Shown here piece after piece: positions 14,400 through 54,097 of a stretch of DNA of 54,408 nucleotides. The notes beneath the pieces are model-generated. The model searched no databases, was not told the DNA's origin, and saw only the letters and a program-made list of their open reading frames with translations. The DNA is from a virus. The stretch is taken from positions 1-54,408 of the IMG/VR virus record IMGVR_UViG_3300021424_000044. One strand, given 5' to 3'. The position numbers were made by a program, and so were the translations under genes. Positions within the stretch are counted from its first letter, which is position 1. Every line of letters begins with the position of its first letter.

Positions 14400-14433
14400 G
14401 GGCACAACCTAGCACACTGGTCTACACTCAGTT

Positions 14434-14925: not shown

Positions 14926-14942
14926 GATTTATCCTCCGTTGA

Positions 14943-28984: not shown

Positions 28985-31900
28985 ATGGAAGATATCAAAT
29001 TTAAGTCCAACTCTGGACAGTTCAATATTGACCAAGCACAAGGAATAGTGGAGTGCTTCGTCGCTGGGATAGGCAATAAGGACTCCGTCGGCGACATTGT
29101 CGTTTCTGGCGCGTTCGCAAAGAGCCTAGTCCGCAGAAAGCCAAGAGTTGTCTGGGGCCACAACTGGAATGACCCAATTGGCAAAGTCCTAGAAATTTAT
29201 GAAGTTCCGCCAAATGACCCACGGCTTCCACAAAAGATGAAACTTGCTGGCATCGGTGGACTATATGCCAAAGTGCAATTCAATCTGAATTCGGAAAAGG
29301 GTCGAGAAGCGTTTACCAATGTCGCGTTTTTTGGAGAAGAGCAAGAGTGGTCGATTGGCTACAAGACGCTTGATGCGATATATGACAATGGCAGACAGGC
29401 AAACATTCTGCGTGAAGTTGAGTTGTACGAACTGAGCCCTGTCCTTCACGGCGCAAATCAACTTACTGGAACAATCTCTGTAAAAACAGAGGAAGAAAAA
29501 AATCATATGATGCACATGGTGGGCGGCGGTTCAGCGGTTGCCGTCATAGAAAAGCCAAAAGGTCCAGTTGACCCATTTGCGCAAGGTGTTGCGCAGCCAG
29601 CAGACAGCGATAGAACCGCAGCGCTCGAAAGAGAACTTGCCACAAGAACTGGCGGCCCAGTGAAAATTATGAAAGCAAACGAAAGTTCGGTTGTTTTCAT
29701 GAAGCCAGGCAGGGGAGTTTTCCGTCTTGGTTATTACTTTGACGGCGAACAGTATATGTTTGGCAAACCCGAGAAAATGGGCGCGACGATGATGGTCGTC
29801 TCCCCAAGTTCTGGTCGCCCAACCTCAGGTCCAGGAATGCCAAGAATTCCAAATTTCCCTGCGGTTCAGGGCAAGCCATCTACATCAGGGCCAATCATTC
29901 CAGTTAAGTATGGGAATGATGCAGCAGCCACTGGGTTTTTTAATCTGGATGATGAAAAATCATTGACCGAACAACTGTCGGAGCAGCCAGATTTCGTTGA
30001 GCAACTTTCGGGGATTATCGGCTCTCTGCAGGGTTTGGTCAATCAACACCGCTCCGAAAAATCAGAGTTGATGATTCCATGTAAGCCACAGGACGCCTTT
30101 GAGACAAAACAAGCCCTTGACCCAGTGTTTGATTATCACAGAATTGAAACATACGTTACGGAAGATGGCATCGTAATCGCGTCGCCACTGAGTGGAGATG
30201 CTTACGAGGCGGTGGAAAATGCGACCAAATCACTCCTCGGAAGAATTGGCAGGAGTCTTGGTGGCGGGGGAAAAGTTAGGCGCGGCAGGGCCGCGCTAGC
30301 CAGAATCGAAGGGGTACTAGACCCCAGAAAACGTCGTGACTTTGATGGCGACGGACTCATCTTTGATGGCACATGGATGGAGCAACCAGACCCAAATCGC
30401 GCACAATCTGTCTATAGGCAAGTTTCGTTTCTTCGTTCTAGCGGCAAAAAGCCCAAGGAAGTCACTGATGCATTGACTGGGGACGAAGTTCCTCGTTTGG
30501 AAATTAATTTTACCAGAACAGAAAAAATAAAGATTCTTGAGGTTTTGGACAACGTAATCAGTGAAAATCAATTGACCGAAGACAATCCAATAACAAAGTT
30601 GAGAGATTCGATAAAGAATGCCAAGAAAGTTGGCGAACAACTTCAACCGCAACTTTTCGGACCAGACGGCGAAAGTTTGCTTGATGGCGCAAAAGCAGAA
30701 TTTGAAAAATTGCAACCAAGTTTTGAAAAGCATGGCGGCAAAAAACCTGGAACAAAGGGCAGAACGCCAACTGACATAATCAAAGATGTTTTGACCAATA
30801 AGCGTTATGAAAGAAGAAATATCGACAAGCGTGCCAAGGGCGGTCTTGGTGGCACCTCTGCAAGGCAGGGAACAGCGCAGGGCAGACGGACAAACATTGT
30901 TGGCTCCAGTAAGCCCCTTCCACGGCTCGGGGGTAGGCGCGACGGAAAGTTGAACGTAGACGATTTTATTGAAAAAGAATTTTTGCCATTTGATTGGTAC
31001 AAGATGTCTGGTGATGAAAAACTGAAATGGCTCAACAGCAAGCCAGATGGCGCTGGAAATGAAGGGACCAATGAGGAAGCGTTGATAGGTTTGCGGCCCA
31101 AACAAGAGGCATGGCGAAAAACGGTCGAGCAAATAACCAATGACGCGATTGAGCAGTCCCTTGAGGAAGAGGACCCTGCTGAAAATCTTAGGGAGCGCAG
31201 GCAAGCGGCGAGTGAGGACCGCGCGGAAAGAGCGGCGGCGCCACGACGCGTATGGGAACAGACCATAGAAAGAGAAGAAAAAGAAAAGGCCAAGGTCGAA
31301 GAAAAACGCCGCAAGATGCGAGAAGCGGCGGCGGCAAGAAAGGCAAAAGACGAAAAGCGCGAGCCTCGCGAATTCCAGTCTGACCCAGATAGACCAGACA
31401 CGATTGCACACAAGCGAACAGCGGAAAAAATAACTAGAGATTCGGACAAAATCAGAACATTTCTGGACGCGCAATCAGCAAAAGGAAGGGTTAATAAGAC
31501 TGTTGAGGATTTAATCAGCGATGGCCTTGATGATGTTGATGTGTTGATTGCTGACGAGGATGATGTTCCAACGCTTGAATCACTAAGTGAGGCACGAGAC
31601 AAAATTGAAGCGCTTATTGCGACACTCACCGACCCAGACTTGATTGAAAAAATCAACAAGCGAAGAAAGATAAATAAAGAAACTGGCAAAGAAGAAGATG
31701 AACTAGAAGTTGTCACAACCCTTAGCAATGCTGAACAACAGTTGATTCAAGGCTTGAAAACTGTTTCTGGCAGATTGTCCGAACACATCAGTGAATGGGA
31801 GGACAGAGAGTCAGACCTTGATGCCGAAAGGGACCTCATTGGCCGTGCTGGAAGGTCTGGTATCAGGGCGGAAGATTCTGGGTATGACTTTGATGAATAT

Positions 31901-32470: not shown

Positions 32471-32603
32471 CAAGTGATTTGTAATAGATTTCACCACCGA
32501 ATAAGTCTGTGAAGTATAATTTGTGAAAACGAATTTTAAGAAATACAACGCAAGACGGGTGCCTGTGGTATTGTCGTCTCGCAACACATAAGGAGCCATC
32601 ACA
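32471..32603 (+). promoter_or_regulatory. Intergenic region with promoter-like elements and strong ribosome site
   Basis: This 133-base gap before the acidic protein gene holds a perfect TATAAT at 32515-32520, and a second possible promoter TTGTGA (32521-32526) with a 17-base spacer to TACAAC (32544-32549). A strong ribosome site AAGGAG (32590-32595) lies 8 bases before the ATG. The strength suggests the downstream gene is highly expressed. Neither promoter has a good -35 and -10 together, so this is only a candidate. Confidence 0.4.
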
Positions 32604-33923
32604 ATGGATTACGACAAGAACGCAGTGGTTAAGTTGGACACCGACGGCTCCGTTTTGAAGTGCGCCAAGGGTGCTGACGCAGAGGGCTGCGGCTACAGCA
32701 TGGGCGCCAAGGTTTGCGCAAAGTGCGGCGCCATGCCCGTTCAGATGAAGGCCATGCCGATGGATGACGACGAGGAAATGGACGACCAGGAAGAAATGGT
32801 TGATGCCGAAGACGAAGATGACGAAGACGCGGTCGAAGAGGATGCGGACGAGGATGACGGCGAGGAAGACGACATTGATGCCAAGACCATGATGCAGGAC
32901 GAGGACGAGGACGAAGACGAAGAGGAAGAGGAAGAGGAAGAGGAAGAGGAAGAGAGTTCCGAACTTGAGGAAATGAAATCTCGTCGTCTAAGAAACATGG
33001 GCTACAAAACAGCCGATGTTGGCGCTCGTGGTTACCTGTGCGCAATTGACCGTAAGGTTTACCCAGGTGGTCAGCCAGTTTGTGACGACTGCGTCGGCGG
33101 ATGCATGGCCGAAAAGGGTATGCCAGGTCTGCTTCATGTTGAAGGTATTGCGGAAGACATGTTTGACGGCAAGGTTTTGGACTCTGGCTATTCAGCAGAA
33201 GCCGACATGTTTGTCGTTGACGTTGAGGCCAAGGATGGTCGCGCCGTTGAGGTGTTCGTTGACGGAACCAGTGCAGAAGTATTGGGCTGGCACAAGTTGG
33301 ACGGAAGTGCGTTTGAGCAGAAGTCGCTTGTTGACGAGATGATGCTCATCGACTTCAACGACGCCGCCGAAATCGCAGTCAAGTCGATTGAGGGCAACGT
33401 TGTGGCTGTTGAGCCAGATGTGTTCGAAGGGTTTGACGCATACGCAGTTGAAATCGACGGCATTGACGGTAAGTCATATGACGTGTTCGTTTCTCTTGAT
33501 GGCGAAGTCCTTGGCTACGACAAGTACGAGGAAGAGGATGCACAAGACATCGAAGCAGAGGCTGCAGAAATTGCATTGAAGCGCGCCTTCACAGACGAAC
33601 AGCGAACAAGCATGGCCAAGGAGGGAACTGCCCTTCCAGATGGCTCTTATCCAATTGGCAACAAGGAGGACTTGTCGAACGCGATTCAGGCTTTTGGTCG
33701 CGCCAAGGATAAGTCTGCCGCCAAGCGCCACATCATCAAGCGCGCAAAGGCGCTGGGTGCTGAGGCAATGATTCCAGCAAACTGGGTTGCTGGGGCCAAA
33801 GCCGATACGGGCCAGTCCGTGGGGGCTGACGGAGAAGCAGTTGACTCGGAGTTCATGTCACAATTGCTTGAATTTGAGTTGCTCAATGCCGAGGTTGAAG
33901 AAAACCAAACCCCAGAATCGTAA
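32604..33923 (+). CDS. Acidic head protein with zinc-ribbon, PepSY-like repeats and a phage C-terminal module
   Basis: Protein of 439 residues. C20, C29, C38 and C41 form a zinc-ribbon-like N-terminus; residues about 53-118 are a very acidic Asp/Glu tract; a second Cys cluster (Y-L-C-A-I-D then C-D-D-C-V-G-G-C) lies near 145-170. Two beta/alpha units with A-A-E-I-A-V-K and V-F-V-S-L-D-G-E-V-L-G-Y resemble PepSY repeats. Residues about 330-395 have F-T-D-E-Q-R-T-S-M-A-K-E-G-T-A-L-P-D-G-S-Y-P and R-A-K-D-K-S-A-A-K-R-H-I-I-K-R-A-K-A, a module frequent in actinobacteriophage head or structural proteins. The strong ribosome site and position suggest an abundant capsid-internal or scaffold-like protein. 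Function is not established. Confidence 0.65.
   Translation: MDYDKNAVVKLDTDGSVLKCAKGADAEGCGYSMGAKVCAKCGAMPVQMKAMPMDDDEEMDDQEEMVDAEDEDDEDAVEEDADEDDGEEDDIDAKTMMQDEDEDEDEEEEEEEEEEEESSELEEMKSRRLRNMGYKTADVGARGYLCAIDRKVYPGGQPVCDDCVGGCMAEKGMPGLLHVEGIAEDMFDGKVLDSGYSAEADMFVVDVEAKDGRAVEVFVDGTSAEVLGWHKLDGSAFEQKSLVDEMMLIDFNDAAEIAVKSIEGNVVAVEPDVFEGFDAYAVEIDGIDGKSYDVFVSLDGEVLGYDKYEEEDAQDIEAEAAEIALKRAFTDEQRTSMAKEGTALPDGSYPIGNKEDLSNAIQAFGRAKDKSAAKRHIIKRAKALGAEAMIPANWVAGAKADTGQSVGADGEAVDSEFMSQLLEFELLNAEVEENQTPES
32898..32954 (+). repeat. Low-complexity GAG/GAC repeat encoding an Asp/Glu run
   Basis: Tandem GAG/GAC/GAA codons encode an uninterrupted acidic run inside the acidic head protein. The purine-only repeat is prone to slippage and could vary between related phages. 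Confidence 0.85.
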
Positions 33924-33949
33924 TCCGATTCCAGAAAAAGGCGCCTGCC

Positions 33950-36900
33950 ATGCAGGAACGTAAAGTATTAATTGCGCGCGTCATAAAGAGCGCTCGGGTT
34001 TTGCCTACATCGAAAGATACGCCGCAAGAGCGCATATCGAAATTTGTAGAGGCACAGAAGCAGGTTGTCGCGTACCCGTTTTCGCCAGAACTTTCGGTGA
34101 AGGCACTCGGGCAAGCACTCAAAAACAACAAGGACCCTTCTGCCGACAACAAGGAAAAACGCAAAAAGGCAGAATCCAATTTCACTCGTATCGGTGTTGC
34201 TGTTTTTGACCCAGATGCGACACCCAAAAAGGGCCAATACTTTGAGATAAGACCTCGCAAAGTAAATCAAGACGGACAACTTGGCGATGTGCCGAATGTT
34301 GGTTGGCTTGACCCACGAAAGACGGTCAAACCAGAAGATTTGGTTAACCAGGGCAAGAAGTTTCTAGCGTCGAAAAAGGGACCATCTGTAAGAAAGGTTC
34401 CAGCCAAGAAAAACCCGCGCACTGGACAAATGGAAGTTAAGGCGCTGGGCAGAACAATCGGCAGGGCCGCTGGGAACATCGGGCAAGCAGCCGCAAGGGC
34501 GGCTGGGGTTCTCGTTGATGCTGACGGCAAGTTCAGATGCCCGCCAGGAGTTCCAGCGGCCAATCAATTTACGGATGAAGTTGGAAGCAACTGTTTTGAT
34601 TTTTCCCCATTGGTAGCCCGAGCGTTGGTGAAAATCGCTGAAAAGTTTGGACATCAAATGATGGAAAAACTTAGCAAAGTTAATAACGCAACCCCCTTTG
34701 AGCGGAATGACGATTATCAACTTGTCCTGCGTAGTAGTGGCGGAAGACTCCGTGGCACAGTCCTTGGTCCAGAGAAAGAAAGACTTCGCGGAACACTTCT
34801 TGGTCCTGATGGAAAACCAATACCGCCGACACCACCACCGCCGCCAGCAACACCAATTGAGCCTTTTGATTTGATTGAGCGCGAACTTGAGATAGCAGAA
34901 AGAGACCTTGCAAGAATTGCTGGTTCTGGAGAAATAATTGACCCAGACACCTATGAAGAAAAATTTGAAGAAGCGTTTCGCGCCGCATACCCAGAATTGA
35001 CTGACGAAGAAATCAAGTCGCTTGCCAAAATCGCATCAGAGCGTGAGCGCATGAGAGATAAATTACGCGCAGAGCAGAGAAGCGCACTGGACCTAATAAG
35101 GTCGCTTGGAATAGACGTTGACGAAAGTGACCCAGTGTCAGTTCAAAGAGGAATAGCGCTGGCGTTGTTGAAAATGAAAGAGATGGGCTGGGATATCGAC
35201 CTTGACTCATATTTTGGTGAAGGATTTTCCGAAAATCCAGAGCGAGCATTACTCGCATACAGGAACACCATCGCAAATATGGCTTTGGATGGGACGCTTG
35301 ATGCGGTAAGGCAGGGGATAATTCACGGGATGAGCCCAGCCGATTTAGAGGTACTGCAAAGAAAATACGGGTCAAAATTTGAAGAAATGTTGGTGCAGGG
35401 GATAGTTGATGGCTCCAACCCTTCTGAAATTTTCCCTGATGACGAAAAAGCACAACAGTTGCTTGCCATGGGTCAAAGGTCTCTCGCCAAGGCTCAACAA
35501 TTTGAGACTGGCACCCTTTTGCAATTGATAAATGCAAGGCAAGAGAACCCCGAACTTACGCAAGATATAAAAAGTATTGTTCATGTTGCTTACGACCCCA
35601 GTGACCCGTTTTTTGGGGGGATGAGTATTGACGAAAAGGGCAATTTGCAGTTTCAGATGAATCTCGGCGGAATGTTACTGCTACACCCAGCCGCGTCGTT
35701 GTCGGATTCGGATTCATTCCTGTATGAACCAACTGGGACCGCTGGAACAGAAATAGAAAAATTGAAAAGAATAGGCGAAGTTGTAAGCGCGGAAAATAGG
35801 CACCGCCTGCTTGATTCATACATGGGGGGCCTAACGACATTTGCAGAACAAATATCTAAAATCCGCAACGGCGAAGGCTACATGACGCAGAGTCTCAACG
35901 ATTCATTTGGTGGTATGGCGCTTGGCCAATTCGTTGCTTTTCATGAACTGACGCATGGGCGCCAACTTTCCATGGCAAGGGAGATAATCAAGTCAAGAAA
36001 CCCTGGAATGTCAAACAGTGAGGCTATGGCACTGTTGGGTCAAATGATTTTTCAGGGCAGAAAATTCACGGATTCAAGAGGTGTTGACTTCGATTACGGA
36101 ACAATGATTACCGACCCGCAAGTGATGCTCACCGCATGTGCGAACATGAGGGAAATAGTTCATCACTTAATCGACAATAAAGTCGGAGGTACATACGGTC
36201 CCTCGCATTACTATTCCACGTTTTACTTAAACGAGGTCATGAGCAAAGCCAATAATTATTCTGACGTGAGCGACCTAAGAGACAGTCTCGTTATGCGGAA
36301 GCGAGAATTGGAGGCCGCAGGAAAAAACGAAGAAGACGCAGAATACAAGGGTCTGATTATGGCTATAGGGCGTATTGACGGTGTCCTAGCAAGTGCCACC
36401 GATGACGAAGACGCCCTATTAAAGATGCGCAGACAAGTAAACGAAATGGCTCAAGTTACATATTTGGAAATGCAGGCAGACCTTTCGGCTGCAGTGAAAT
36501 TCGGGCTCATAAAAGAAACTCCAGAAATAAAGGCATTCCTGGCTCCGCTATCGCTTGGCCAAGACCTCCCAGAAATAAAAAAGAATATTGTGCCGCCGCC
36601 GCCGCCAGCACCGCCTGGCCCACCACCAACGAGGCGAGATAAGTTGAGGGAATTGGCAGGGATAGGTAAACGAGCAAGAAAAATTTCGATGATGGACTTG
36701 CGAGACATGGTTGAGGGAATCGCTGACATAGATGAAGCCACTGATAAAACTGGTGGTCTTTCTGCTCACGACAGGACTCTCATGTCGGCAGGTATGGCGT
36801 CAGCCGCAAAATTTGATAGTAGGGGCTCTGCATCCAGATGGGGCAAACAAGTCAGAGACGCTGTGTTGCGCGACATGACAGAAAAACATCGTGAGGTGTT

Positions 36901-39900
36901 GGAATCTGAATGGCGTGAACTTTTCGATGTTAAAAACCCAATAGCAGAAGACGGAACAAACCAGTCCATATTGGACCATAGGCTGATTATGGGTGGTGTT
37001 GACGACTCCTGGCTCTCAAATGAAATAGAAAATGGCTTCATTCCATTGGTAGAAGTTGTTGGTGAATCCAAACTTCCGAATTCTGTGGCTGCTGAAATAG
37101 TTATACCTGGTGGCGCCATTAGCGAATTTGGCGAGGAAATGAAGGGGAGAAGAATAGAAATCAGAACACATTTCACTGGGGTCATCAAATCCGACGACAA
37201 CCTTGGTTCCTCAGATTCCATTACAAATCCAATTGACAATCAAAGATTGATTGTCGCCGTACCAGAGGGGTATTCGGGCCTTCCCGACTACACGCCAGGA
37301 ACAGACAAAAGCGAAATTGGCTCGATAATTCTTCCCCCTGGGGAAATAGAAATTGTTGGTGTTAGGGATGACGGTGTCGCAATTGGCCGCGTAACGTCGC
37401 AGCGAAGCGCCGACGATATTATCGACGCAAAACGCCAAGAACTTAAAGCATTTGACGACAAAAAAACTGACATTGGCGAAAAAATAACAGTCAGAAAAGC
37501 CATAAATAGGCTTGAAAGACAACAAGAGACCCGCAGACTTTCTGCGCTTCGTTCCGCTGGTAATACCGCTCGCGCATTACCAGATGAAGATAGAACAAAA
37601 CTTCCATCAGCAAAGTCGAGCAAAACACGCGACGTACTTGAGCGCCTCAATGCCGTTGGAATTAAATTTGGCATCAGCAGCAAAAAAGACAGGGAGAGAA
37701 AACGCAAGGAGCGATTGTCCAGGGTTGGCGGAGATAATGCGCGTGTCGGGATGAGCGTTAGAACAGACACGTATGAATTCGAAAGTCCAGAAGAGTCGCA
37801 GGTGAGGGTTTCGAAAAGCATCGATAGGGCTGTAGAACTAATTAAAGAGGGCAAACTTCCTGGACTGGCGCCAGAAGTTGCAGAAATCATGAAGGACAAA
37901 TCCCCAGAAGAAATTAGAGCCATTCTTGTTGCTTCCGCACGTTCGTTTGTCGATGGACTTGATAAGAGACCGCGATTTAGGGTGCGTGGAACAAGGGTCC
38001 GAGACGTAAAGGACGCCAGAGAAATACCGTTACTTGGATTCTTGAAAACTGGTGTTTACAAAACCACCTATGATGCTGACGCAACTGGTGTCGCGGCGGC
38101 ATCCGATGTGGGAAGGAGGGCGGAGTATGAGATTCTGCTTGGTTTACCAGAGGGGGCCGATGAATCCCTGAGGCCAGCACATGGCTTCATGACGCATAGA
38201 GACCAAATTGAGTTTGAGGACGAGTGGGCAAAAGCACAGATTGACGCTGCTGAAAAACGGTCGCCAAACGCCGTTTCGTTTAGAGACCCAAGCGTTATCC
38301 CGCCAGCATCTGGCTCCAATAACAAACTCAAGGATGCTGACGGCAAACTGAGGGCTGTTGACTCATTGCCATATCAGTATGGTGACAGCGAAATAGTGTT
38401 GAGAACCGACGCGGCCAATCGTTCTGTCGGAACAATGGGTGACTCGCTAAATGGCTTTAGGACCCCATTCCAACTTGATGGCTCATCCACCGATGATGAA
38501 TTATTGGAGTCTTTTATTCTCAATAGGGGTTCTGCGGCTGACAAGGGCGATATTACCGCTTCAGAACAAAGACGAATTGCAAACCTGTTGAATGCCGCAG
38601 TCGGCAAAAATCACGCACACACCACCGACTGGACGGAAGATGGTGGGGTTCCACAAAGGGATTATGTAGAAGCAGTTGTTGCTGGTTCTTTTGATATGAG
38701 CGACGTGGAAGAAATAAAAATTTCCAAGGGCTTCCAAGATGCAGAAATAATGCCGTTTGCAAAAGTTGACGCTCAAAATGTCGGGGGTGATGAGGTGGTT
38801 GAATTATTGCAAGACGTACTCCCACAAAAAGATATAGATGAGGTTAAAAAACTTATTTCATCTCCACAAACAGACCCAGACAAAAAGCGCCTTGCTGAGG
38901 ACATTAAGCAATTAATCGCGGCGAGACTCCAGTTGGTAAGAGAAAGAAGTGGCAGAAGGCAAGTGCGCGCACGAGTTGCACAACATTCATCGGATGGCAA
39001 TGTTCCCAAGGTTACTTTCTTGAATCCTGATGGAATAAACATTGATGACCCCAGGACCTTCAAGAGAACAATGGACGCCGTCGGTATGGGCGAAGAGCAC
39101 GAAATAGACGACATCGTCAAATATGCAACCGCAAAAGCCATCCGTGAAAGACTTTCTGGCTCTGGCATTTCTGTTGACGACGATGCATCATTCGCTGCCC
39201 TGAAGCCAAAACCAGTTATATCTGTTGCCAATAATAAACCAGCACTTCGCTCCAGTGGCGCCGCGACACCAAAAACAAGAACGCAAATACTTTCCGAACT
39301 GACAAGTTCGGGGAATAAGCCAGACTATGCCCCAATAGGTTCTCGTTCACTACAGATGATGGACGAGGCAAAAAAGAGGCGAGAAGAACTATCCCAAATA
39401 CTTGATTCGGCAAGAATGATAACCCCCAATTTTGAAGAAGATGAATTGAGCGAAGTTCTCAACATGGCCGACAAGACTTTTGCTTGGGCAGATGAGGAAC
39501 TTATTGCATCCTTAAGACAATTACGAAATCGCCCTGGTCTCTCAGATGCTGGTAGAAAGAAAATTGACCGCGCATTACAAGAACTACAACAAAGAAAAAA
39601 GGAATTTGTTGCAGCGGGTGAACGAGGATTTGTTCCAGGGATTCGCAGAAGCGGCGCCGACAAAAGCCGACGCCTCGCAAGGCGTTCTGAATCTGCCGCT
39701 CGCAGAATGGAATCTGGTGACCCAGCACAAATAGCCCGAGGTTTGAGAGACATTCGCAGCGCAAGAATGAGCGCCGAGGGGAGGGAGAACACCACCCGAA
39801 TCGCCCAAAACCAAGTTATCCGAGGGAGTGGTTCAAGGTCTGCTTTCAGGACAAGGGGTGTTGGCGCCTCACTTCGTTCTTCTGGTGCCACAAGAAGTGT

Positions 39901-41415: not shown

Positions 41416-42073
41416 GCGTTACGAATTCAAAGCGCCACAAGATGTCATTTTTGACCTTCCACAGGAAAGAATCACTGGAGATATTCTTCGCGGTTATGGC
41501 CCAAGAAGAGGAAACTTGGAAAGACTTTTGCGCTACTGGCGACCAATCATGCGCAAGCCAGGGGGCTTTAGACGTTGTCGTATTATCCTGGCCGACCATC
41601 CAGAACTGTATCCGTTAAACAACATTTGCGCTTGGCTACACCATGAAACTACAGGACTTTGGCCAAACGAAGGTTGCCATCACCCTGGCATGAAAAATTG
41701 CAAAGGAAAATTAAAGAAAAGAAACTGGACAAATAGGGAGTTTTTGTCTCGACTAAAAAGGCCAATTCGTGCTCCTGGAAAACTTGCGCGAAGCGCGGGC
41801 AAGGACAAGCCGCTTGGGAAGTCTGCCAACTATTTGGAAGTAGACGAGTTTTATTCAGAAAAAGTTTGGCGAGCCACGATTGATGAGGAAGCGCCAATTA
41901 TTACTGGCGGAGACCAAAAGTACGCCATGACTGTTCTTAAGGAATTCATGGATGCAGAGCCAGATTTCGTAAAGTATCTTCGTGACGACAACAACTGGGA
42001 AATAGAGGGCGAAGATGATGCTGGCATGCCAGCAAAGGCTGCTTATATTGCCCAGAAATGTTGTGGTGGATGA
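41408..42073 (+). CDS. Cys/His-rich protein of unknown function
   Basis: Protein of 221 residues from ATG 41408, overlapping the upstream gene by 8 bases; a GTG 12 bases earlier is less likely. The N-terminus has D-I-L-R-G-Y-G-P-R-R-G-N-L-E-R-L-L-R-Y-W-R-P, then C-R-I-I-L-A-D-H-P-E-L-Y-P-L-N and C-A-W-L-H-H-E-T-T-G-L-W-P-N, and C-H-H-P-G-M-K-N-C-K: two His and several Cys close together that may bind zinc. The rest is basic, ending in C-C-G-G. It is an unrecognised but phage-like head-region protein, likely a structural or DNA-contacting component. Confidence 0.65.
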   Translation: MNERYEFKAPQDVIFDLPQERITGDILRGYGPRRGNLERLLRYWRPIMRKPGGFRRCRIILADHPELYPLNNICAWLHHETTGLWPNEGCHHPGMKNCKGKLKKRNWTNREFLSRLKRPIRAPGKLARSAGKDKPLGKSANYLEVDEFYSEKVWRATIDEEAPIITGGDQKYAMTVLKEFMDAEPDFVKYLRDDNNWEIEGEDDAGMPAKAAYIAQKCCGG

Positions 42074-44130: not shown

Positions 44131-47100
44131 GACAATACGCGGTACTAAAGAATGTGGTTCGCGACGTTAATTTTGGCGTCGTCGTAAAGTCCGATGGAAA
44201 CCTTAAGTTTTTTGGTTGGTCCCAAAAAGCAGTGGAGTGGGCAAACTGGGCAAATTCCAACAATGCCGACCTAAGTCAACTTCCGCCGAATATCTCTGTG
44301 GGTGAATTCAGGGGTATGTCCGACGAGACAATGAAGAGCATTATTCTGAATTCCCAAGATGCCGTCGCTGCTGGTTCGGCAACAATCAGCACCAAGACCT
44401 TGGCCTTTGATTTGGGGCGCGAGCACAACCCAAATGCGTCAAAATTCCCCTCTTTTATTGATTCGCCAATTTCTGGAGACTGGGTCTCAAAGCATAAGTC
44501 AATAAATTTCAAGGCGCATAACTTCAGAAAAGAAGTTGTACAGAATGAACTTGCCCTAAGGGTCCGCATTCACGAATTGGCTTTCAATAACGAGACTAAA
44601 CAATTTGTTTCAAAGCCCAATAAAATTACCGCAACCCACACTCGTTCAGAAATTCAAAAAAAGATGTCGCGCGGTGCGGAGCGAAAATTCGGTAAGCAAA
44701 TTGTTGAATACACGAACAAAGAAATCCTGAAAAACTACGTTGCCCCAACAATCAAGAGAGATACGCTGGGGAAATCCACCAAGGAAATTCTTGATACCTA
44801 TACAAAGGCAAGGCTCGGACGAGCGATTGGACGCGCTGCTGGTAACGCGATTCGCGGAGCAGCGTCAAGCAGGACAGCAAGAGGTGTTGCACGAAGATTT
44901 ATTTCTGGTACTCTCGACCCACGCAAGAGAAGAGACCATGACGGAGACGGGTTGATTTTTGACGGTACATGGCGGGAAATGCCAGACCCCAATAGATTTG
45001 TTTCTGCGCCGCGTGCCAGCGAAACCTCAACGGGCATGTTGATGGAGGGTACTCCTGGTCTTCGACGCCGCGGCGGAATGAACCTTCCAGGTGGTGGCGG
45101 TGTTGGAATTAGAAGTACTGACCCAGAAGAAAATAGGAGAGTAGAAGACAGCCTAAGAGCCCAAGATGAACTGCGACAACAATTTACGGCAGAAGTAGAA
45201 AAAATAGTCAATACACTAAGGGATGCTGGTCTTACTATCGAAAAACCAAAGCGTGGAAAGCGCGAACGAAGACTTTCTGACGGCACTTCCCTAAGAAGTT
45301 CTGGTGCAACCGCGAACGAGCCGCCACGTGCCGCCGCTGCGGTTCAGATGGCGTTTGACACGCGAAATAGTCGCAAAGCATCAAAGATGACGTATGACCC
45401 GCAGACGAATTCTGTTGAAGTCACATATAAAGACGGAAGAATGAAAAGATTTGACAATGTCCCATACGATGAAGCAAGACGCGCTGGGGCCGATGACGCA
45501 ATAGACAGACTCATTACAGACATGGAAACTGGCCGCATAGGCAAGGAATCCAAAGAGCCAATTATGGGCATTCGTTCATCTGGCAGAAGACCCAAACCAG
45601 ACGTTGACATGACAGATATGACGCCAGAAGAAAGAGAAGCGAATAGACCTAGTAGCGTTTCAGAAGATGAGTATCGTCGCCGAATTCGACGTGATGTCGA
45701 CCGAAGTTTGCGCAGGGCCGACGAAGAAGGTTTGCGTTCGTCTGGGAAATATACACGCGGGAACATGTCGCGCCTCACCCCTCAAAGCCAAAGTCGCGTT
45801 GACAACGCAAAAGAAATGCTTGATTCTGGAAGAGTTGACAACGTCAGGCAACTGACGACCCAGGTCGAAGGTCTTGATTTACGTATTTCCAGAAATCAAA
45901 ATTATCTTGATTCGCTAAGGGACACGCTTCGCAGGTTGGGCCCTGGTGACAAGCGCCGCCCAGATACAGAAAAAGATTTTGAACGCGCCGAGCAAGAACT
46001 TGGCGTTGATATGGCGATTCGCGACCTAACTCAGCAAAGACTCAAGAAAATCGACAGGGGCCCAAAGCCAGGTGGTTTGCGCTCTAGTGGTAATCGAAAT
46101 ACTGCAGAAAAACTCCCTGACGAAGGCGGAGAACCTGGTCGCTATGACGACATGCCGAGCGTTGAGGACGCTGTTAAAAAACTTACCTCTGGCGACAGAA
46201 TGTCAGCAGACGAACTCGAATATCTGGAGGAGGTGACGGACAGAATCCTCGATGACCCAGACACACCAGAAAATATTCGGGATTCAATGTTGGATTTGAA
46301 AAATCAAATTGCTGCACGAAGAAAGAATGGCGGCAATACGCTTCGCTCCAGTGGTGGAGGGGGAAGACGACGCGCAACCACGCCAACCCCAGTGGACGTT
46401 GAAGCATATCTCAAAGACTGGTTGGAAAATCGAAATCGCAATCGGCCATATATGCCTGGACAAGATACTGGCCAAAAAACACCTGTCGATGATATCCCAG
46501 ACCTGTCCGACGAAGCGATTCGTGACGAAATCGACAGAATTGAAAATCGTCCTCGCGTATATGACGGCAACGTTACTGCTGCTCGCATGGACGGCGAGCG
46601 CAAGGCGGCGCTGGAAAGAGAATTGCAAAGAAGACGGAGAGGCGGAGGCAGAAGAAAGCCAACTCAAAACACTAAGCGCCCGTTCTCGAGCGAACCAAAA
46701 CCAGAGACCAACAGACCACTTTCGACGGGCAGTAACCAGCGCGTTAGTAACTGGTTGAATTCACCCGAAGGTAGAAGGAGTGTTCAGACCCTTAGGTCAT
46801 CTGGGGCAGGCCGTGAGGAATTTGGGTCGACCGCAACTGGTGGTTTCAAATACCCCAATGCGTCGCAAAGAAAGCGAATATTCAACAGCAAGGAAGACGT
46901 CGACGATTTCATACAGGACCTCAAAGACGATTACGAGGCTCGCCGAAGACGATTAGAACAAGAACTTGGCTTTGAAGATGGCTACTACATGGACGACGAA
47001 GAACTTATTGAAAAGTTCATGGACGACTACGGAATGTCGAGAGGCGAAGCGCGCCAAGAAATGCGCAAATACAGACGTAATTACGACCTTCTAGAAAAAG

Positions 47101-50100
47101 AACAGGAAATTCACGAGCGTCGTCTCGATGAACTTGATGCAGAGAAATCAAGGCTTCCACACCAGCAGGAAATTGACGACCCGATTGAACTCGACACAAA
47201 TGGTTTCCCCAAAAATCCAGAACAGACGGAACGTTTTAACGAACTGATGGAGGAGGGGAATCCAGTCTTCAAGGCCCGCAAGAGGCCAACACGAAAACCC
47301 AAGGAAACAGAAGACAAACGAGACCCAGAAGTTGAAGACCTCATTTCCAACATTATGTCGTCCACCGCTGGTCCAAGCGAAGGGTCAAAGCGTTCACTCC
47401 GCTCTTCTGGCGCTGGCCCAGAAACCCAGGATAGACCAGAAATAACATCAATTACGAAATTGATTGAGAATGACTACGACAGCATGCTGCAGGGTGGGGC
47501 CGACATGGATTCTGGCATGAGAGAAGTCGCTAGAACGGTTGGACTTAACGAAAAACAAACTGAAAAGTTGTCCAAGATTGCTTACACCTTGGACAGACAA
47601 AGGGACGAACTTCCGCAAACCGCAAGTGACCAAAAGAGGCTCGTTGACGGAATCATGGAGGAAAGATTTGGCAATCAACCACTGAATGACGACCAAAAAG
47701 CGTCAGTGCGGGAGGCTCTGTCGGCATTTATTGCCTACGCCGCGAAGAACGCAAAAGCAGAAGCCAACGGAAAAGCGAAGCCACGCCGCGACAGCGAGCC
47801 AGATGACATTCAGTCGATGATTAGAAGATTGCAGAGCGGGCAGCAACTGAGTGATGACGAACTCGACATGCTTGATGAACTGAAAAACATCGTCAGAGGG
47901 AAACGGAATGTAACCGAAGACGAACTTGATGCAATGGCTGACCTGGAAAAGGAAATACAAAGGGCACGACGCGCACCACGTCGCCAATTCGAACCAGCAC
48001 AGCAGGCTCTCTTTTCACGAGGAAACGTAAGAACGGATGTGCCGCTAAGTTCCCGTAGGTCTCTTGCAAGAACCGAGCGTGCCGCTAAACCACGAGGGAC
48101 AACGCTCCGTAGCGCTGGTGGAGATAAAACAAAAACACCAAGAACACCAGCACCAAAGAGTGGCGCTCCGCGCGGTGTTGGTGCTGGTCCTGGTGGCAAG
48201 GCTGGCCACGCAAGAATGACAAGAACGTATGGTCGTGACAAGAAGGGCAGTGACGGAAAGGTATTTGACTCCCTCACACCAGAACAGAAGGATGCCGTTA
48301 AGAAGACTCTTGTCGAAGAGGTCAAGCCAGCATTGGATAAGAAACTAAAGGGTTTCTTCAGTAAGTATTGGAAAGCCAGAAGCGAAAGAGGCTCTAAGAA
48401 ACAAAGCCTTTTGGCTGTCCGTAGAAGAGCAAAGGGTGACGCTCGCGGAAGATACGACAAAGTCGCAGAAGACACCCCACTTGAGTCGGCAGATATTTAC
48501 GAGATGCTTTATCGACTTGACGGACAAGTGTCCGAAGGTCTACTTGAAAAGTTTGAAGTGTCCGATAAGGACTCGCGAGAATTAAAACTCACCGAAGATG
48601 GTGAGGCCAAGGTGAGCGCGGCCAAGAATGGATACACAGTTCAGCAAAGAGCCTTGGATGACGCTCAGACAATCATGAACATGATTGAAGACGGGGACTT
48701 CTCCGCTCTTGAGCACTTGCATCCTGCCACCAAGAAGAAGATTGCTGACGTAATCAAAAAGAACGGCGGCGAGGTTCCAAAAGGTTGGATTGATTCAGAG
48801 TCATCAGTCGCTGGTTGGGCTGGCGGAGAAGGACGAACAAAGGCCCCAGACGCAATCGACCTAGAGAAAGAACGTGGAATAGGGAAAAAGAAAAAAGAAA
48901 AGCGACTCTCCCTGTTCCAAAGACTGCGCCGCGTCGACCCAGAAAGAGAACGAAAAGTTGAATTGCGCGCTGCAAGAAGACAGGGCCGACTCCGCGAGGG
49001 TATTGAACTTGACCCTGACCTACAGTTGAAGCGACGTATTCTTCGTGGCCGCGCCATGAAGAGAACTTTTATGTCGAGGTTTAGGAAGAACCGCGACCCA
49101 GAAACGCTTGCAACAGACATGAGGGAAAGGCGAGAAGAGGTTGCAGTTCTTAAAACAAATGCTACGGATGGAAAGGTTGAGGTTACTGACGGTTATGTCG
49201 ACCTTTTGCACGCTCTTGACCAAGGCTTGATTGGGATTAATGAAAAGAAGAGAAAGGGAGCAAGCGAAGAAGAAGTTGAAAGCGAACATAAAGCGTTGTT
49301 GCGCAGACTGTGGGAAAACTCGGGCTTTTCAGAAACGCCAATCCAACTGAAAGAAGATGAGGTTAAGTTACTCCTTGATGCTGGTTGGCAACCCATCATG
49401 CGTGGCACTGGCCACGAAAAAGTCAATAGCGAAACCTATGTTGAGCAATTCATCACCTCGGAAGGACGATTTATCCCAGGTCAGGGTGGCTCCGCGTTCG
49501 GAATCGGCGAATACTTCTCGTACCCAGGCGAATGGGGTAGTTACCATGGCGCGAATCCAACCGACAGACACACGCTCGTGGCACTCCTGCCCCCAACATC
49601 AACAATTGTCAAGCAGAGTGAAATTGCACGTGAACATGCAAATCTCGGCGCCATCACAACAAAAATTTCGGACGCATTCAAAATAATCGGTGGTCGAGAT
49701 GCGACCAAAGCCATGGAGCCAGAAGAACTGGTCGCCGAAATAGACAAAGCGGTCCCAGACCTGTCATCCGACGCATCGCGAACTGGTCAGATAATTAAGC
49801 AATTACGCGACAGGCTTGAGGCATTGTCAAAACTGCCCAAAACAAACGACGAAGAACGCGGTGCAGTTCAAGCACAAAAGGAAAAGATTTTGAATTCGCT
49901 TGACTATCTACAGCGTTTTTCCAAGCAACGCTCGCCAGAAATGATTGCACCGCTTATCGGTGTTGACGCCATTGACACAAACGAGAATGACTCCTCCATT
50001 AAGGACCCAATTCTCCTTCACAACAGAACGTCTGTTGCGGTTCTTCAGGTACCGACAACCTACGACCAGGGCTTGGCATTGGTTTCTGGCCCCAATGGCG

Positions 50101-50993
50101 AACGAAGGCCCAAGGCGTGGCTTAAGTGGAAGCGGAAGAGTGTTGAAACACCAGAAAGAGAAGCACCAAGAAGAAGGTCGCCACGTCGCGCAAGACGAGC
50201 ACAGCCGCCAGCACCCCAGCCAGCAGCAACCCCAAATCCGCCGACGCCAACCCCAAGTACGCCAACGCCATCCCCAAGTACACCAACGCCACCCACTCCG
50301 TCACCAGACGGCAAGGGCGCAAAAGCACCAGTTGATGTTTCGTCATGGACTTCAAGCAGACCACAGTCGACTGGCTCAAATCCAGCCACACTGCTTACTG
50401 CGCCAGACGGAACCCAGTACTACACCAAACTGCCAAAAGGAACCCCAGACGACAAGGACAGAATGGAAACAGAAGCCCTTGCATCAGAACTTTATAAGTT
50501 GGCTGGGATTCAAAGCGCCGATGTTCAAATGGGGACCCGCAATGGTCAGCCAGTGACCATTTCAAGAATGGTGCAATCGCGTATGCCAAATTCGCAGGGT
50601 GACCAAGACGAAGCACTTAAGGGTTTTGTTGTGGATGCGTGGCTCGCAAACTGGGACGCACCGCTTAACGACAATATCAAGATTGATAGCAATGGCAACG
50701 CAGTGAGACTCGATGTTGGCGGCTCACTTGATTTCAGGGCGCAAGGCGCACGAAAAGGTAAGGCATGGGGCAACACGGTTGGTGAAATTGAATCAATGAA
50801 AAAAGGTGGAACATACGATTTCAAAAAGATTACGGATGCTGCAATCAAGCAGCAAGCCAAAGCACTGGGTAACGTAACTGACACAGATATTAGGGCAACA
50901 GTTTCCAGAATTGTCTCTGACCCAGCAAGGGCAAAGGCACTTGCTGATACGCTTATTGCACGACGAGATGACATAGTCAAGAGGTATGCATAG
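44127..50993 (+). CDS. Giant polyvalent protein with KTSC-like, ART-like and kinase-like domains
   Basis: Protein of 2288 residues, starting within ATGA overlap. N-terminal domain about 1-225, then L-G-R-A-I-G-R-A-A-G (Arg/Ala amphipathic), then the Asp/Gly module (D264-T281). Residues about 400-475 resemble a KTSC domain (S-K-M-T-Y-D then Y-K-D-G-R-M). LRSSG-type motifs at 389, 482, 536, 651, 739, 889, 1091 and 1327 separate Lys/Glu/Arg-rich helical units. Residues about 1750-1850 resemble an ADP-ribosyltransferase (R1759 and G-S-A-F-G-I-G-E-Y-F-S from 1788). The C-terminus (about 2080-2288) is kinase-like: K2101, E-A-L-A-S-E-L-Y, D2170/D2177, N2183 and D2196-V-G-G. A Pro/Thr-rich linker precedes it. 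Confidence 0.8.
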   Translation: MRQYAVLKNVVRDVNFGVVVKSDGNLKFFGWSQKAVEWANWANSNNADLSQLPPNISVGEFRGMSDETMKSIILNSQDAVAAGSATISTKTLAFDLGREHNPNASKFPSFIDSPISGDWVSKHKSINFKAHNFRKEVVQNELALRVRIHELAFNNETKQFVSKPNKITATHTRSEIQKKMSRGAERKFGKQIVEYTNKEILKNYVAPTIKRDTLGKSTKEILDTYTKARLGRAIGRAAGNAIRGAASSRTARGVARRFISGTLDPRKRRDHDGDGLIFDGTWREMPDPNRFVSAPRASETSTGMLMEGTPGLRRRGGMNLPGGGGVGIRSTDPEENRRVEDSLRAQDELRQQFTAEVEKIVNTLRDAGLTIEKPKRGKRERRLSDGTSLRSSGATANEPPRAAAAVQMAFDTRNSRKASKMTYDPQTNSVEVTYKDGRMKRFDNVPYDEARRAGADDAIDRLITDMETGRIGKESKEPIMGIRSSGRRPKPDVDMTDMTPEEREANRPSSVSEDEYRRRIRRDVDRSLRRADEEGLRSSGKYTRGNMSRLTPQSQSRVDNAKEMLDSGRVDNVRQLTTQVEGLDLRISRNQNYLDSLRDTLRRLGPGDKRRPDTEKDFERAEQELGVDMAIRDLTQQRLKKIDRGPKPGGLRSSGNRNTAEKLPDEGGEPGRYDDMPSVEDAVKKLTSGDRMSADELEYLEEVTDRILDDPDTPENIRDSMLDLKNQIAARRKNGGNTLRSSGGGGRRRATTPTPVDVEAYLKDWLENRNRNRPYMPGQDTGQKTPVDDIPDLSDEAIRDEIDRIENRPRVYDGNVTAARMDGERKAALERELQRRRRGGGRRKPTQNTKRPFSSEPKPETNRPLSTGSNQRVSNWLNSPEGRRSVQTLRSSGAGREEFGSTATGGFKYPNASQRKRIFNSKEDVDDFIQDLKDDYEARRRRLEQELGFEDGYYMDDEELIEKFMDDYGMSRGEARQEMRKYRRNYDLLEKEQEIHERRLDELDAEKSRLPHQQEIDDPIELDTNGFPKNPEQTERFNELMEEGNPVFKARKRPTRKPKETEDKRDPEVEDLISNIMSSTAGPSEGSKRSLRSSGAGPETQDRPEITSITKLIENDYDSMLQGGADMDSGMREVARTVGLNEKQTEKLSKIAYTLDRQRDELPQTASDQKRLVDGIMEERFGNQPLNDDQKASVREALSAFIAYAAKNAKAEANGKAKPRRDSEPDDIQSMIRRLQSGQQLSDDELDMLDELKNIVRGKRNVTEDELDAMADLEKEIQRARRAPRRQFEPAQQALFSRGNVRTDVPLSSRRSLARTERAAKPRGTTLRSAGGDKTKTPRTPAPKSGAPRGVGAGPGGKAGHARMTRTYGRDKKGSDGKVFDSLTPEQKDAVKKTLVEEVKPALDKKLKGFFSKYWKARSERGSKKQSLLAVRRRAKGDARGRYDKVAEDTPLESADIYEMLYRLDGQVSEGLLEKFEVSDKDSRELKLTEDGEAKVSAAKNGYTVQQRALDDAQTIMNMIEDGDFSALEHLHPATKKKIADVIKKNGGEVPKGWIDSESSVAGWAGGEGRTKAPDAIDLEKERGIGKKKKEKRLSLFQRLRRVDPERERKVELRAARRQGRLREGIELDPDLQLKRRILRGRAMKRTFMSRFRKNRDPETLATDMRERREEVAVLKTNATDGKVEVTDGYVDLLHALDQGLIGINEKKRKGASEEEVESEHKALLRRLWENSGFSETPIQLKEDEVKLLLDAGWQPIMRGTGHEKVNSETYVEQFITSEGRFIPGQGGSAFGIGEYFSYPGEWGSYHGANPTDRHTLVALLPPTSTIVKQSEIAREHANLGAITTKISDAFKIIGGRDATKAMEPEELVAEIDKAVPDLSSDASRTGQIIKQLRDRLEALSKLPKTNDEERGAVQAQKEKILNSLDYLQRFSKQRSPEMIAPLIGVDAIDTNENDSSIKDPILLHNRTSVAVLQVPTTYDQGLALVSGPNGERRPKAWLKWKRKSVETPEREAPRRRSPRRARRAQPPAPQPAATPNPPTPTPSTPTPSPSTPTPPTPSPDGKGAKAPVDVSSWTSSRPQSTGSNPATLLTAPDGTQYYTKLPKGTPDDKDRMETEALASELYKLAGIQSADVQMGTRNGQPVTISRMVQSRMPNSQGDQDEALKGFVVDAWLANWDAPLNDNIKIDSNGNAVRLDVGGSLDFRAQGARKGKAWGNTVGEIESMKKGGTYDFKKITDAAIKQQAKALGNVTDTDIRATVSRIVSDPARAKALADTLIARRDDIVKRYA
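44895..44996 (+). other. Shared Asp/Gly module, copy 2 (in 2288-residue protein)
   Basis: Encodes T-L-D-P-R-K-R-R-D-H-D-G-D-G-L-I-F-D-G-T followed by W-R-E-M-P-D-P-N-R. It is preceded by the Arg/Ala-rich amphipathic stretch G-R-A-I-G-R-A-A-G. Codons differ at many synonymous positions from the other two copies. Confidence 0.85.
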
Positions 50994-50995
50994 TC

Positions 50996-51379: not shown

Positions 51380-51388
51380 GTTTGGCTC

Positions 51389-54097
51389 ATGGCCGATGAG
51401 CAGTCCGATACAAATTCTCGTGTTTTTGCCATTCGCGCATCACAGTGGATTGGTTGTTCTGGAGCGCACAAACACGAGGGTAAGTGGATGCCGTGCGAAA
51501 CGCATGAAGAACTTCTAAAAATTTCTGGTGAGGCAGAGCCAAAAAAGAAAACTGCTTTTGAAGATTTGTACAAAAGATACAACACGCGAAAAGCAAAAGG
51601 GAAAAAGAAAAAGCGCGGTTGGGAAAATTTAAGAGAATTAAGACCGCTTGGCGGGTTTGCAACACTTGAGGGCGGCGGCATAGTTTCTGCCCCAATAAAT
51701 TCAACAATTTACTCTGGTGGCGTTAAGTCATACATTCCTGGCGTAACTCCAAGAGATAATGACCCAGACGTTTTCACAGACATCGAATCGGCGCGCAAAA
51801 GAAGCAGGATGCTGGGGTGCATTGGGGTGAGAAGAATGCCTTCTGCAAGCGGAAGAACAGTTTGGATGCCGTGTACAACGAATACCGATTATGCGCGCCT
51901 TGCTGGAACGACATTTCTTGGCAGAAGAGGTCAGCAAGAAGCACAGCGCAGAATGATTAGAACGATTGTCAGAAACGAATTCCGTAACGAAGAGCGAAAC
52001 AGAAGAATTAGAAAGAAGTCACTGTTCGAGGAGTTGGTCCAAGACAAGAGTCTACTTGGAAGAGCCATAGGCAGAATAAATTCACCTGGTTCTTTGTCAA
52101 GAAGACTAAGAAGAGGAATGTCTGCTGGCGGCAGAATTGAAGGAGTACTTGACCCCCGCGTGAGAAGAGACCTTGATGGCGACGGTCTCATTTTTGATGG
52201 CACGTGGAGAGAAATGCCAGACCCAACCAGGGCGACAACCGCAGCGTCGAGAGTGCTACGAAGTTCTGGTGATGCGACACCACCAGAAATGAAATGGTGG
52301 AAATCTAAAACAGACAACACCTGGCTGACGCCAAACAGAATTGGCAAAGGGGGGAAACTCAAAGCCTCCGAAATACTCAACTTTGACAGAGTGCGCTTGC
52401 GAAAAGACAGAGACGAACAAGCCGAAGTTCTCGGTGTATCACGAGAAGTCATAGACGCCATGCACCAGCCAGGCGCATCATTGGACCCAGAGGATGCAGA
52501 CAAACTCTCCCTAAGAGCACTTGAATTGCACCCAGCGCTCATTTGGGGCGCATCATGGCTAGAGCCAGATAGGAAAAAGAAAACCAAAATACGAAGAACC
52601 AAAAGTTCACGCGGCAAGTACGGCTCGCTTGACGGAAGACAGGTTCGCGCCAAAAAACGTGGCGCTGGGGAATTGGACGACAGGGACAAGCGCGTTCTTG
52701 AAATGCGCGCAAACGGCGCAACAATGCAGGAAATAGCGGATGAACTCAAAGTAACAAAACAAAGGGCTGACCAAATTTACAAGAGGGCGGTTAAAAGAAA
52801 TACGCAAGCAGACATCAGTAGAGATGGCAGCATCCTTCGCAGTCAGGGGACAAATCTTGCGCGCGGTGACGGGATGATTCGCCGAGACGAACGTGGAAAG
52901 CCAATTCGTCAGGCAGACAGAAGAAAAGAAACCCTTGAGCAGACAATAGCCAAACTCAAAGAAATGGGTTTTTCTGATGAAGAGATAAATCTGCTTATGA
53001 CTGGTGACCGAAACACACCTGTCGATACGACCACAAGAGATGTTGATACCTCAGAGGCAAGAAGGCTTCGGTCTTCTGGTCGAGTCAATTCGCCAGTTGG
53101 TCTAAGGTCTGGCGGCTTCAGTATTAGTCAGATGGAAATAACGCCGCCCAAAGAGTGGCCAGAATCGTCAAAAACACACATGCTCAACTGGGCAAATGGA
53201 AGACCATCTTTCAATATCCCATACTCAATAAGCCAAAAACACAAGCGTGATGGAAGTCTTTCCGACAGAGAATGGAAGACGCTACTTAGGTTCTACAAGC
53301 AATGGGGCCCAGAAAATACATCTGGGAGAAGATTGCGTTCTGGTGGCGGTGGAAACATCACTGATACATACACCAATGTTGGTGCAAGAAGAATGGCACA
53401 AATCATTCTTGACAGAGTAAAGCCGCAGTCCAGAAATAAGCCAGTAGGTAAAAGACGGCACTTCCACATAATTGGTCCAGGCGGAATGGGAAAGACCACG
53501 CTGCGCGAGTTTCTAACGAAAGAAGGGGTAATACCTGGCGACGACGAAGCGGCGCTTGTTGACCCCGATTTCATCAAAATGGGAATTGTTGGGTATGAGG
53601 GTGGAAAAGGTTCAGAACTTGTTCATAGGGAGTCGGCACATTCGGCAACACATACGGTGAATGACGCGCGAAAAGAGGGCATGGACATAATCACTGAAGG
53701 AACTGGATACAGACTGCACGACTACAAAACGACAAGTGACAATACCTATGAGAAGGTGTTTCACATTCCGTACCTGCCATACGATGAAGCAGAAAGGCGA
53801 GTCCGCGTAAGAAATGCACAAGGAAAAAGACAATTGCCAGTTAGTCAAATAAGGGCCAAGGGTGCTGGCCTGTATGGATTCATAACCGACCACCTGAGAA
53901 GAGGCGAAGCGCAAACAATGTATATCTGGGACATGGACGTTCCAGAAGGGGCTGCGCCAAGGGTCATCGCAAAAATAGAAGATGGTGTTTTTCAGGCTTT
54001 TGACGAACCAAAATTCAAGGCTTGGGCCGTGCAGCACGGTGGTAGGGGTGGGGATTCCGATATCTCCTGGTTCAGGAGAAACTTCCCTTCTAAATAA
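51389..54097 (+). CDS. Polyvalent protein with helix-turn-helix and zeta-toxin-like kinase domain
   Basis: Protein of 902 residues. N-terminal part has two G-C-x-x-x-x-x motif regions (W-I-G-C-S-G and M-L-G-C-I-G-V-R-R-M, each followed by W-M-P-C), suggesting a repeated Cys-containing unit. Then L-G-R-A-I-G-R, Arg-rich sequence and the Asp/Gly module (249-281). LRSSG-type motifs occur at 290, 483, 560, 572 and 649. Residues 429-471 form a sigma-region-4/LuxR-type helix-turn-helix (G-A-T-M-Q-E-I-A-D-E-L-K-V-T-K-Q-R). Residues about 690-860 are a zeta-toxin-like P-loop kinase with G-P-G-G-M-G-K-T (K702), D-P-D-F-I-K, and E-S-A-H-S. It may phosphorylate sugar nucleotides or proteins in the host, as an inference. 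Confidence 0.8.
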   Translation: MADEQSDTNSRVFAIRASQWIGCSGAHKHEGKWMPCETHEELLKISGEAEPKKKTAFEDLYKRYNTRKAKGKKKKRGWENLRELRPLGGFATLEGGGIVSAPINSTIYSGGVKSYIPGVTPRDNDPDVFTDIESARKRSRMLGCIGVRRMPSASGRTVWMPCTTNTDYARLAGTTFLGRRGQQEAQRRMIRTIVRNEFRNEERNRRIRKKSLFEELVQDKSLLGRAIGRINSPGSLSRRLRRGMSAGGRIEGVLDPRVRRDLDGDGLIFDGTWREMPDPTRATTAASRVLRSSGDATPPEMKWWKSKTDNTWLTPNRIGKGGKLKASEILNFDRVRLRKDRDEQAEVLGVSREVIDAMHQPGASLDPEDADKLSLRALELHPALIWGASWLEPDRKKKTKIRRTKSSRGKYGSLDGRQVRAKKRGAGELDDRDKRVLEMRANGATMQEIADELKVTKQRADQIYKRAVKRNTQADISRDGSILRSQGTNLARGDGMIRRDERGKPIRQADRRKETLEQTIAKLKEMGFSDEEINLLMTGDRNTPVDTTTRDVDTSEARRLRSSGRVNSPVGLRSGGFSISQMEITPPKEWPESSKTHMLNWANGRPSFNIPYSISQKHKRDGSLSDREWKTLLRFYKQWGPENTSGRRLRSGGGGNITDTYTNVGARRMAQIILDRVKPQSRNKPVGKRRHFHIIGPGGMGKTTLREFLTKEGVIPGDDEAALVDPDFIKMGIVGYEGGKGSELVHRESAHSATHTVNDARKEGMDIITEGTGYRLHDYKTTSDNTYEKVFHIPYLPYDEAERRVRVRNAQGKRQLPVSQIRAKGAGLYGFITDHLRRGEAQTMYIWDMDVPEGAAPRVIAKIEDGVFQAFDEPKFKAWAVQHGGRGGDSDISWFRRNFPSK
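52133..52231 (+). other. Shared Asp/Gly module, copy 3 (in 902-residue protein)
   Basis: Encodes V-L-D-P-R-V-R-R-D-L-D-G-D-G-L-I-F-D-G-T then W-R-E-M-P-D-P-T-R. It is preceded by the same R-I-E-G context as copy 1, and is followed 8 residues later by an LRSSG motif. Copy 1 is followed by LRSSG after 10 residues. Confidence 0.85.
54063..54079. other. Hairpin near the end of the last large gene
   Basis: A perfect 7-bp inverted repeat (TCTCCTG / CAGGAGA) with a 3-base loop lies 16 bases before the stop of the 902-residue protein. It may be a weak terminator or mRNA-end structure ahead of the capsid gene; no U-run follows, so this is a guess. Confidence 0.3.

Follow-up and report, generated by a model that had tools for sequence, protein, structure and literature searches.

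A candidate head-addressing module and a virus-specific repeated peptide in giant proteins encoded between the portal and capsid genes of uncultivated phages

In a family of uncultivated phages, large proteins encoded between the portal and the major capsid protein (MCP) genes carry one of two conserved modules, and a repeated peptide, spelled differently from virus to virus, lies almost entirely on the C-terminal side of that module. This association points to a system, towards which we lean slightly, in which the module would be an address tag allowing co-assembly with the prohead, and effector polyproteins would be cut at the peptides downstream of the tag.

The window, i.e., the whole stretch of 54,408 nucleotides analyzed here (IMG/VR record IMGVR_UViG_3300021424_000044), is a myophage contig whose tail sheath, baseplate and terminase are all encoded on the minus strand. 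On the plus strand, the portal gene is followed by that of an S78 prohead-protease fusion, then by that of an acidic 439-aa protein and by four further ORFs, all of them giant or large, and all five module proteins of the window lie between portal and MCP. The portal protein (26886..28898, plus strand; Pfam Phage_portal, E 5e-53) is one edge of this block and contains no repeated-peptide site. At the other edge, only the start of the MCP gene is present (54203..54408, plus strand), as it is cut by the window end; the intact gene is found at 12104-13468 in the near-identical contig L011. The acidic protein (32604..33923, plus strand), whose C-terminus resembles protease/scaffold proteins of other phages (phrog_80, weak), has neither module nor site. 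The minus strand also carries an auxiliary metabolic gene, encoding a phosphoadenosine phosphosulfate reductase (19711-20853).

The Asp module, LDPRxRRDxDGDGLIFDGTWxExPDP, is present in three proteins of the window, as had been predicted, with the sequences expected and at positions inside those originally proposed. Copy 1 belongs to the S78 fusion (30317..30394), whereas copies 2 and 3 are given together with their LGRAIGR basic segment (44814..44990, module at 44913-44990, and 52055..52225, module at 52148-52225), all on the plus strand. The three copies match one another at E 1e-16 to 1e-17 within the record. Their DNA has diverged (67-79% identity among copies, and 38-58% at third codon positions), which shows that conservation is at the protein level. 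A wider form of the Asp module, FDPxAxDGDxDGLVQEGTPFERPxxP, is homologous to this IFDGT form (hhalign 93%, E 2.6e-7).

Paired-Cys elements are found at the equivalent place in two other proteins, in agreement with the original prediction: one follows an LGRTIGR basic segment (34445..34597, RCPPGVPAANQFTDEVGSNCF, element at 34535-34597), and the other, of a second type (RCPEGYQYGGRFTDNRFSTCG), belongs to the 690-aa protein (42472..42534), both on the plus strand. They are not, as had been assumed, variants of the Asp module, since no profile is common to the Asp and Cys modules (hhalign probability 0.4% and 0.2%), and a single module common to all five proteins was therefore rejected. On comparison of their profiles, the two modules are not homologous, and the upstream basic LG..IG segment is the sole part that they share. 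This segment, read as LGRxIGR or LGRIGR, does precede the module in four of the five window proteins, as first noticed. Among relatives, the LG..IG pattern is found upstream of 73/89 modules of the IFDGT form, 59/61 of the wider form and 62/77 Cys modules, vs. about 0.2 in random stretches. The segment is strongly basic in the Asp forms (mean net charge +4.2 for IFDGT and +6.5 for the wider form) and weakly basic in the Cys form (+1.3). Relatives of the Cys module occur in 282 IMG/VR stretches. A scan of a genome collection also yielded the Cys module in two contigs (L226 and L227) of one Phycisphaerae MAG (ETNP), probably phage sequence binned as a contaminant.

IMG/VR was queried with the portal, with both kinds of module and with a diverged Asp form, and HMMs were then applied to the loci obtained. 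In uncultivated relatives, this yields a non-redundant set of 243 module ORFs, of which 63 have the IFDGT form, 102 the wider form and 78 the Cys module, a number that makes a chance origin of the module untenable. With a single exception, each of these ORFs has one module, whose median first residue is 179-251 in the open frame. Occurrence mostly away from head genes, which had been named as evidence against a head role, is not what is observed: in 19 long records, the portal-to-MCP block holds 93 of the 105 module matches while representing 30% of the sequence. Three of the 12 outliers were read closely; all are large multi-unit proteins in which the module stands close to the N-terminus, and two of them have site-like peptides behind it. 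These two, outside the block, are the proteins of L334 (4807 onward, 3365-aa frame) and L336 (1894 onward, 2410-aa frame). Beyond the MCP gene, and immediately after it, L011 encodes a 598-aa protein (14249-16045) with a minimal module (LGPRIGGGG...DKDGDGVVNDGTPDERP), and similar module matches are found 1.4-2 kb past MCP in G018, G028 and G033. Among the 72 S78 fusions that are long enough, HMM detects the module in 63, and several of the remaining fusions bear a more diverged form; the head-maturing protease and the predicted cargo therefore share one tag.

Judged by portal and MCP, the closest cultured relatives are the actinophages Cantare, GMA6, Chidiebere, DalanDe and Gilgamesh, which suggests that the viruses studied here may have actinobacterial hosts. 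In these actinophages, the same portal-to-MCP block is occupied by an ART toxin, by HTH proteins or by a protein of 4624 aa; unlike the window, all five have neither module nor repeated peptide. The 4624-aa protein is gp48 of Streptomyces phage Gilgamesh (L116, 4979-18853). In cultured phages at large, tblastn finds no module at E 1 and one chance-level match at E 6.

The window contains twenty [L/I]RS[S/G/A/Q]G sites (30431..53347, plus strand; the first at 30431-30445 and the last at 53333-53347), all of them C-terminal of a module. LRSSG alone is present in 12 copies in the cargo proteins, where shuffles predict 0.06. It stands 10 residues behind the module in the 902-aa protein and 12 residues behind it in the protease fusion. 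The constant order of parts initially described does not survive, as the 690-aa protein is devoid of LRSSG, nor does the variable N-terminus of the first protein, which is the S78 protease. The peptide had been regarded as a spacer between units, but it seems to be the half of the system that carries more information. In relatives it is replaced by other spellings, such as GMRS (27 copies), LSSG (17-38 copies in some viruses), GLASST, LxSGR, RGARS (GARS), RFSSG and GMASR, which all share the core hydrophobic-[R/S/A]-S. Alignment of 431 sites from 29 viruses gives (R/G)-G-[L/M/F]-[R/S/A]-S-[G/S/R], with linker-like flanks.

The placement of these sites relative to the module is highly one-sided. 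When virus-specific sites are counted, 477 are found in 149,328 aa on the C-side of the module and one in 30,018 aa on the N-side, where 96 are expected; the p-value of 2e-36 is to be taken as a guide, as the viruses are related and the counts partly dependent. Motifs were detected automatically, virus by virus, the final site count excludes two clusters whose repeats are unrelated, and the site definition, though learned from proteins that were later counted, was blind to the side of the module. An earlier and smaller count gave 214 sites on the C-side and none on the N-side. The generic G[LMF][RSA]S behaves in the same way (354 vs. 1), and the core is still one-sided in those viruses whose genome gives no significant motif of its own (135 vs. 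1). By comparison, reordered or altered tripeptides mostly show little or no side bias, [LMF][KNQ]S having the opposite one, and the portals of the family contain four core matches in 42,820 aa. The first site lies at a median of 45 residues behind the module, and within 60 residues in 62% of cases. Codons at the repeated peptides are fully mixed, which indicates that selection acts on the peptide and led us to reject LRSSG as a DNA-level repeat or recombination site. Elsewhere in the window, a minus-strand 1618-aa protein (8789-13645) has a single LRSGG (LRLRSGGGGPGGGG) and one GFSS; apart from the latter, this LRSGG is the sole site-like match among the minus-strand genes checked.

The module proteins of the window differ widely in the domains that accompany the module. 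The 1161-aa S78 fusion (28985..32470, plus strand; Pfam Peptidase_S78, E 4e-10; PHROG head maturation protease, E 4e-26) is a member of Peptidase_S78, with conserved catalytic residues (invariant WGH, EWSIGY) and portal and MCP genes nearby. Its Asp module occupies residues 445-470 and its sites are at 483, 994 and 1029; a fold search with its model gave nothing significant, with weak herpesvirus protease matches only. The 2337-aa polyprotein (33950..40963, plus strand) combines the Cys module, a zincin unit and an ADP-ribosyltransferase (ART) fold, with sites at 260, 1200, 1766 and 1975 and a second HExxH near the C-terminus. The zinc-binding motif of its zincin, HELTH, is encoded at 35942..35956 (plus strand). 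HExxH is kept in 55 of 57 orthologs, and the invariant columns of this family are essentially the Cys module and the zincin residues (HExxH, a Gly and a distal Glu). The ART fold, located behind the zincin, is supported by PDB 5urp (E 2.7e-4) and by viral structure matches, and AlphaFold models most of this region with a pLDDT >90. L303 (frame 1-2515 aa) encodes a Cys-module protein without HExxH in a virus that is also devoid of the repeated peptide, the single case of this kind.

The 690-aa protein (42058..44130, plus strand), with its variant of the Cys module, has no Pfam match and no repeated site. The 2288-aa polyprotein (44127..50993, plus strand) contains an Asp module, eight sites and an enzyme-like C-terminal region. 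By eye only, the C-termini of these two proteins look kinase-like; databases give no support to this assignment, and a sequence search of the C-terminal units against PDB gave no match. Finally, the 902-aa polyprotein (51389..54097, plus strand) has an Asp module, five sites and, according to Pfam, a sigma-70 region 4-like HTH and a Zeta-toxin-like P-loop. Its N-terminus bears two DUF3721-like repeats, at 51455-51496 (C-x-GAHKHEGKWMPC) and, as a diverged copy, at 51818-51874, with a strong Pfam match. With a zincin HExxH, an ART fold, a Zeta-like P-loop and an HTH encoded between portal and MCP, these proteins belong to the phage polyvalent proteins.

A head-addressing role for the module fits well with the sequence data. 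The head-targeting signal that had been proposed by analogy with T4 gains from the position of the block and from the tagged protease, but the T4-type N-terminal location does not apply. In the mechanism that we propose, the module, made of the basic LG..IG segment followed either by the DxDxDG..[ED]GT..ExP loop or by the Cys element, would address the S78 protease to the prohead, and the same module would bring a set of effector polyproteins into the prohead as it assembles. Once co-assembled, they would be cut at (R/G)-G-[L/M/F]-[R/S/A]↓S, before the Ser of the sites located downstream of the tag. The tag and the N-terminal domain would stay whole and be left behind, while zincin, ADP-ribosyltransferase, kinase-like and Zeta-like units would be freed and may travel into the host along with the DNA. 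Our literature search yielded no virion detection of any protein from these viruses and no experiment on them. The 690-aa module protein, which is devoid of sites, counts against the proposal, as do the cultured actinophage relatives, which have neither module nor sites.

We favor the S78 protease as the enzyme that would cut the sites, the zincin being a possible candidate. The tag is present on the protease itself, most MCP delta-domain junctions (TR↓SIGE, FK↓SIGD) have a Ser at P1', as does the site core, and L[ST]SR stands immediately before the MCP junction in LSSG viruses. Ser at P1' is also encountered with herpesvirus assemblin and HK97. A preference for serine at this position is reported for gp245, the prohead protease of SPN3US (PMC10052503). 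Against S78, however, its domain barely differs between the window and close relatives in which the site is spelled otherwise (91-94% identity), and none of its columns tells the A class from the R class, so that a simple co-evolution of S78 and spelling is unsupported. The MCP junction ETRSIGE is alike in LRSSG, GLASST, LxSGR and RGARS viruses, independently of cargo spelling, and with a generic site matrix its median rank is 29th of ~425 MCP positions. An MCP junction spelled as a cargo site was thus rejected, except loosely for LSSG viruses and for the shared P1' Ser. It could alternatively be the zincin of the Cys-module protein that cuts the sites, the module serving mainly to co-localize substrate and zincin, which we find unlikely. 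This enzyme is near-universal, its catalytic residues and the module being essentially the sole invariant columns, and it evolves fast alongside the spelling, with 48-62% identity within a spelling class and 19-37% between classes; but grouping by spelling is also seen with the N-terminal domain of this protein and may simply reflect lineage, and the zincin is present in several viruses that have no significant motif. The prohead protease is, moreover, the enzyme to which both the P1' Ser and the MCP junction point. Self-processing has been proposed for zincins of polyvalent proteins, e.g., P1 DdrB (PMC5512222).

The peptide could also bind a viral partner, such as a shell, scaffold or DNA-packaging part, without being cut, the module then being an extra docking element. 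A near-invariant S78 across spellings would be in line with this, and co-evolution with any partner should produce a spelling that is lineage-specific and has mixed codons. We nevertheless hold simple binding to be quite improbable: in close relatives, sites stand on either side of the zincin unit at similar places; they lie in linker-like sequence and are nearly absent N-terminal of the module, as release sites would, and no partner was found whose variability matches the spelling. As for the Asp module, it would be very surprising if it were a calcium-binding dimerization or translocation element of the dockerin/EF-hand type, unrelated to head entry. The calcium-binding loop originally suggested stands as a sequence resemblance, since DxDxDG[x][I/V] is EF-hand-like, with Asp/Asn interchange at loop positions, but position 12 is a Thr instead of Glu/Asp, Pfam gives no EF-hand or dockerin match at E 0.1, and some members break the loop (e.g., DADLDM). 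As the loop is modeled by AlphaFold at a low confidence of ~60, nothing can be deduced from it on the fold or on calcium. Moreover, calcium binding leaves both the module on the protease and the position of the block unexplained.

The precedent for this reading is strong. One parallel is found in T4, where IPI-III and Alt have capsid-targeting sequences and gp21 is the prohead protease (PMC9026906). As in T4, a tag is shared by otherwise unrelated proteins, their head location being deduced here from gene position only. In T4, the prohead protease shares their compartment and a cut just after the tag frees the cargo; here, both are predicted. The T4 sequences, by contrast, are short N-terminal propeptides, with a tag of ~10 residues and the site L/I-x-E, whereas here the tag is an internal composite element of ~60 residues, which can lie several hundred residues from the N-terminus and exists in two unrelated versions, and each cargo has many sites whose spelling varies between viruses. 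Head ejection proteins of SPN3US and phiKZ have N-terminal propeptides, most of 111-254 residues, some of which are cut several times (PMC10052503). They resemble the proteins described here by a large head cargo and by the P1' Ser preference (both predicted in our case), but have one AxE motif, are not multi-enzyme polyproteins and, as far as the accessible text goes, have no comparable shared tag described. Phage polyvalent proteins contain zincin, ART and other enzyme domains, have portal and capsid genes as neighbors and are predicted to be packaged (Iyer; PMC5512222), and the N-terminus of P1 DarA is cut by the prohead protease (PMC12810830). Polyvalent and P1 Dar proteins are, as here, multi-domain proteins including zincin and ART, near portal and capsid genes; for them, the portions accessible describe neither a shared address module nor a processing peptide that is repeated. 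Searches of open-access papers retrieved no described phage effector polyprotein of this kind. In plant and animal RNA virus polyproteins, site spelling is uniform per genome and differs between species. The same pattern is observed here, but this is an analogy only, as viruses and proteases are unrelated.

It is nearly as likely as not that a widespread group of DNA phages relies on true effector polyproteins, with an interchangeable tag common to the maturation protease and the cargo, lineage-private sites co-evolving with their cutter, and a few giant genes from which many host-acting enzymes would be loaded, cut and delivered. The module gives a sequence-level handle on which proteins of uncultivated phages likely ride in the head and reach the host, and the repeated peptide marks the points at which giant proteins are likely divided. 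With their lineage-specific spellings, these viruses form a natural series for following how a phage protease changes together with dozens of its sites. Finally, if the tag works in isolation, it would be a portable label with which proteins could be loaded into phage heads.
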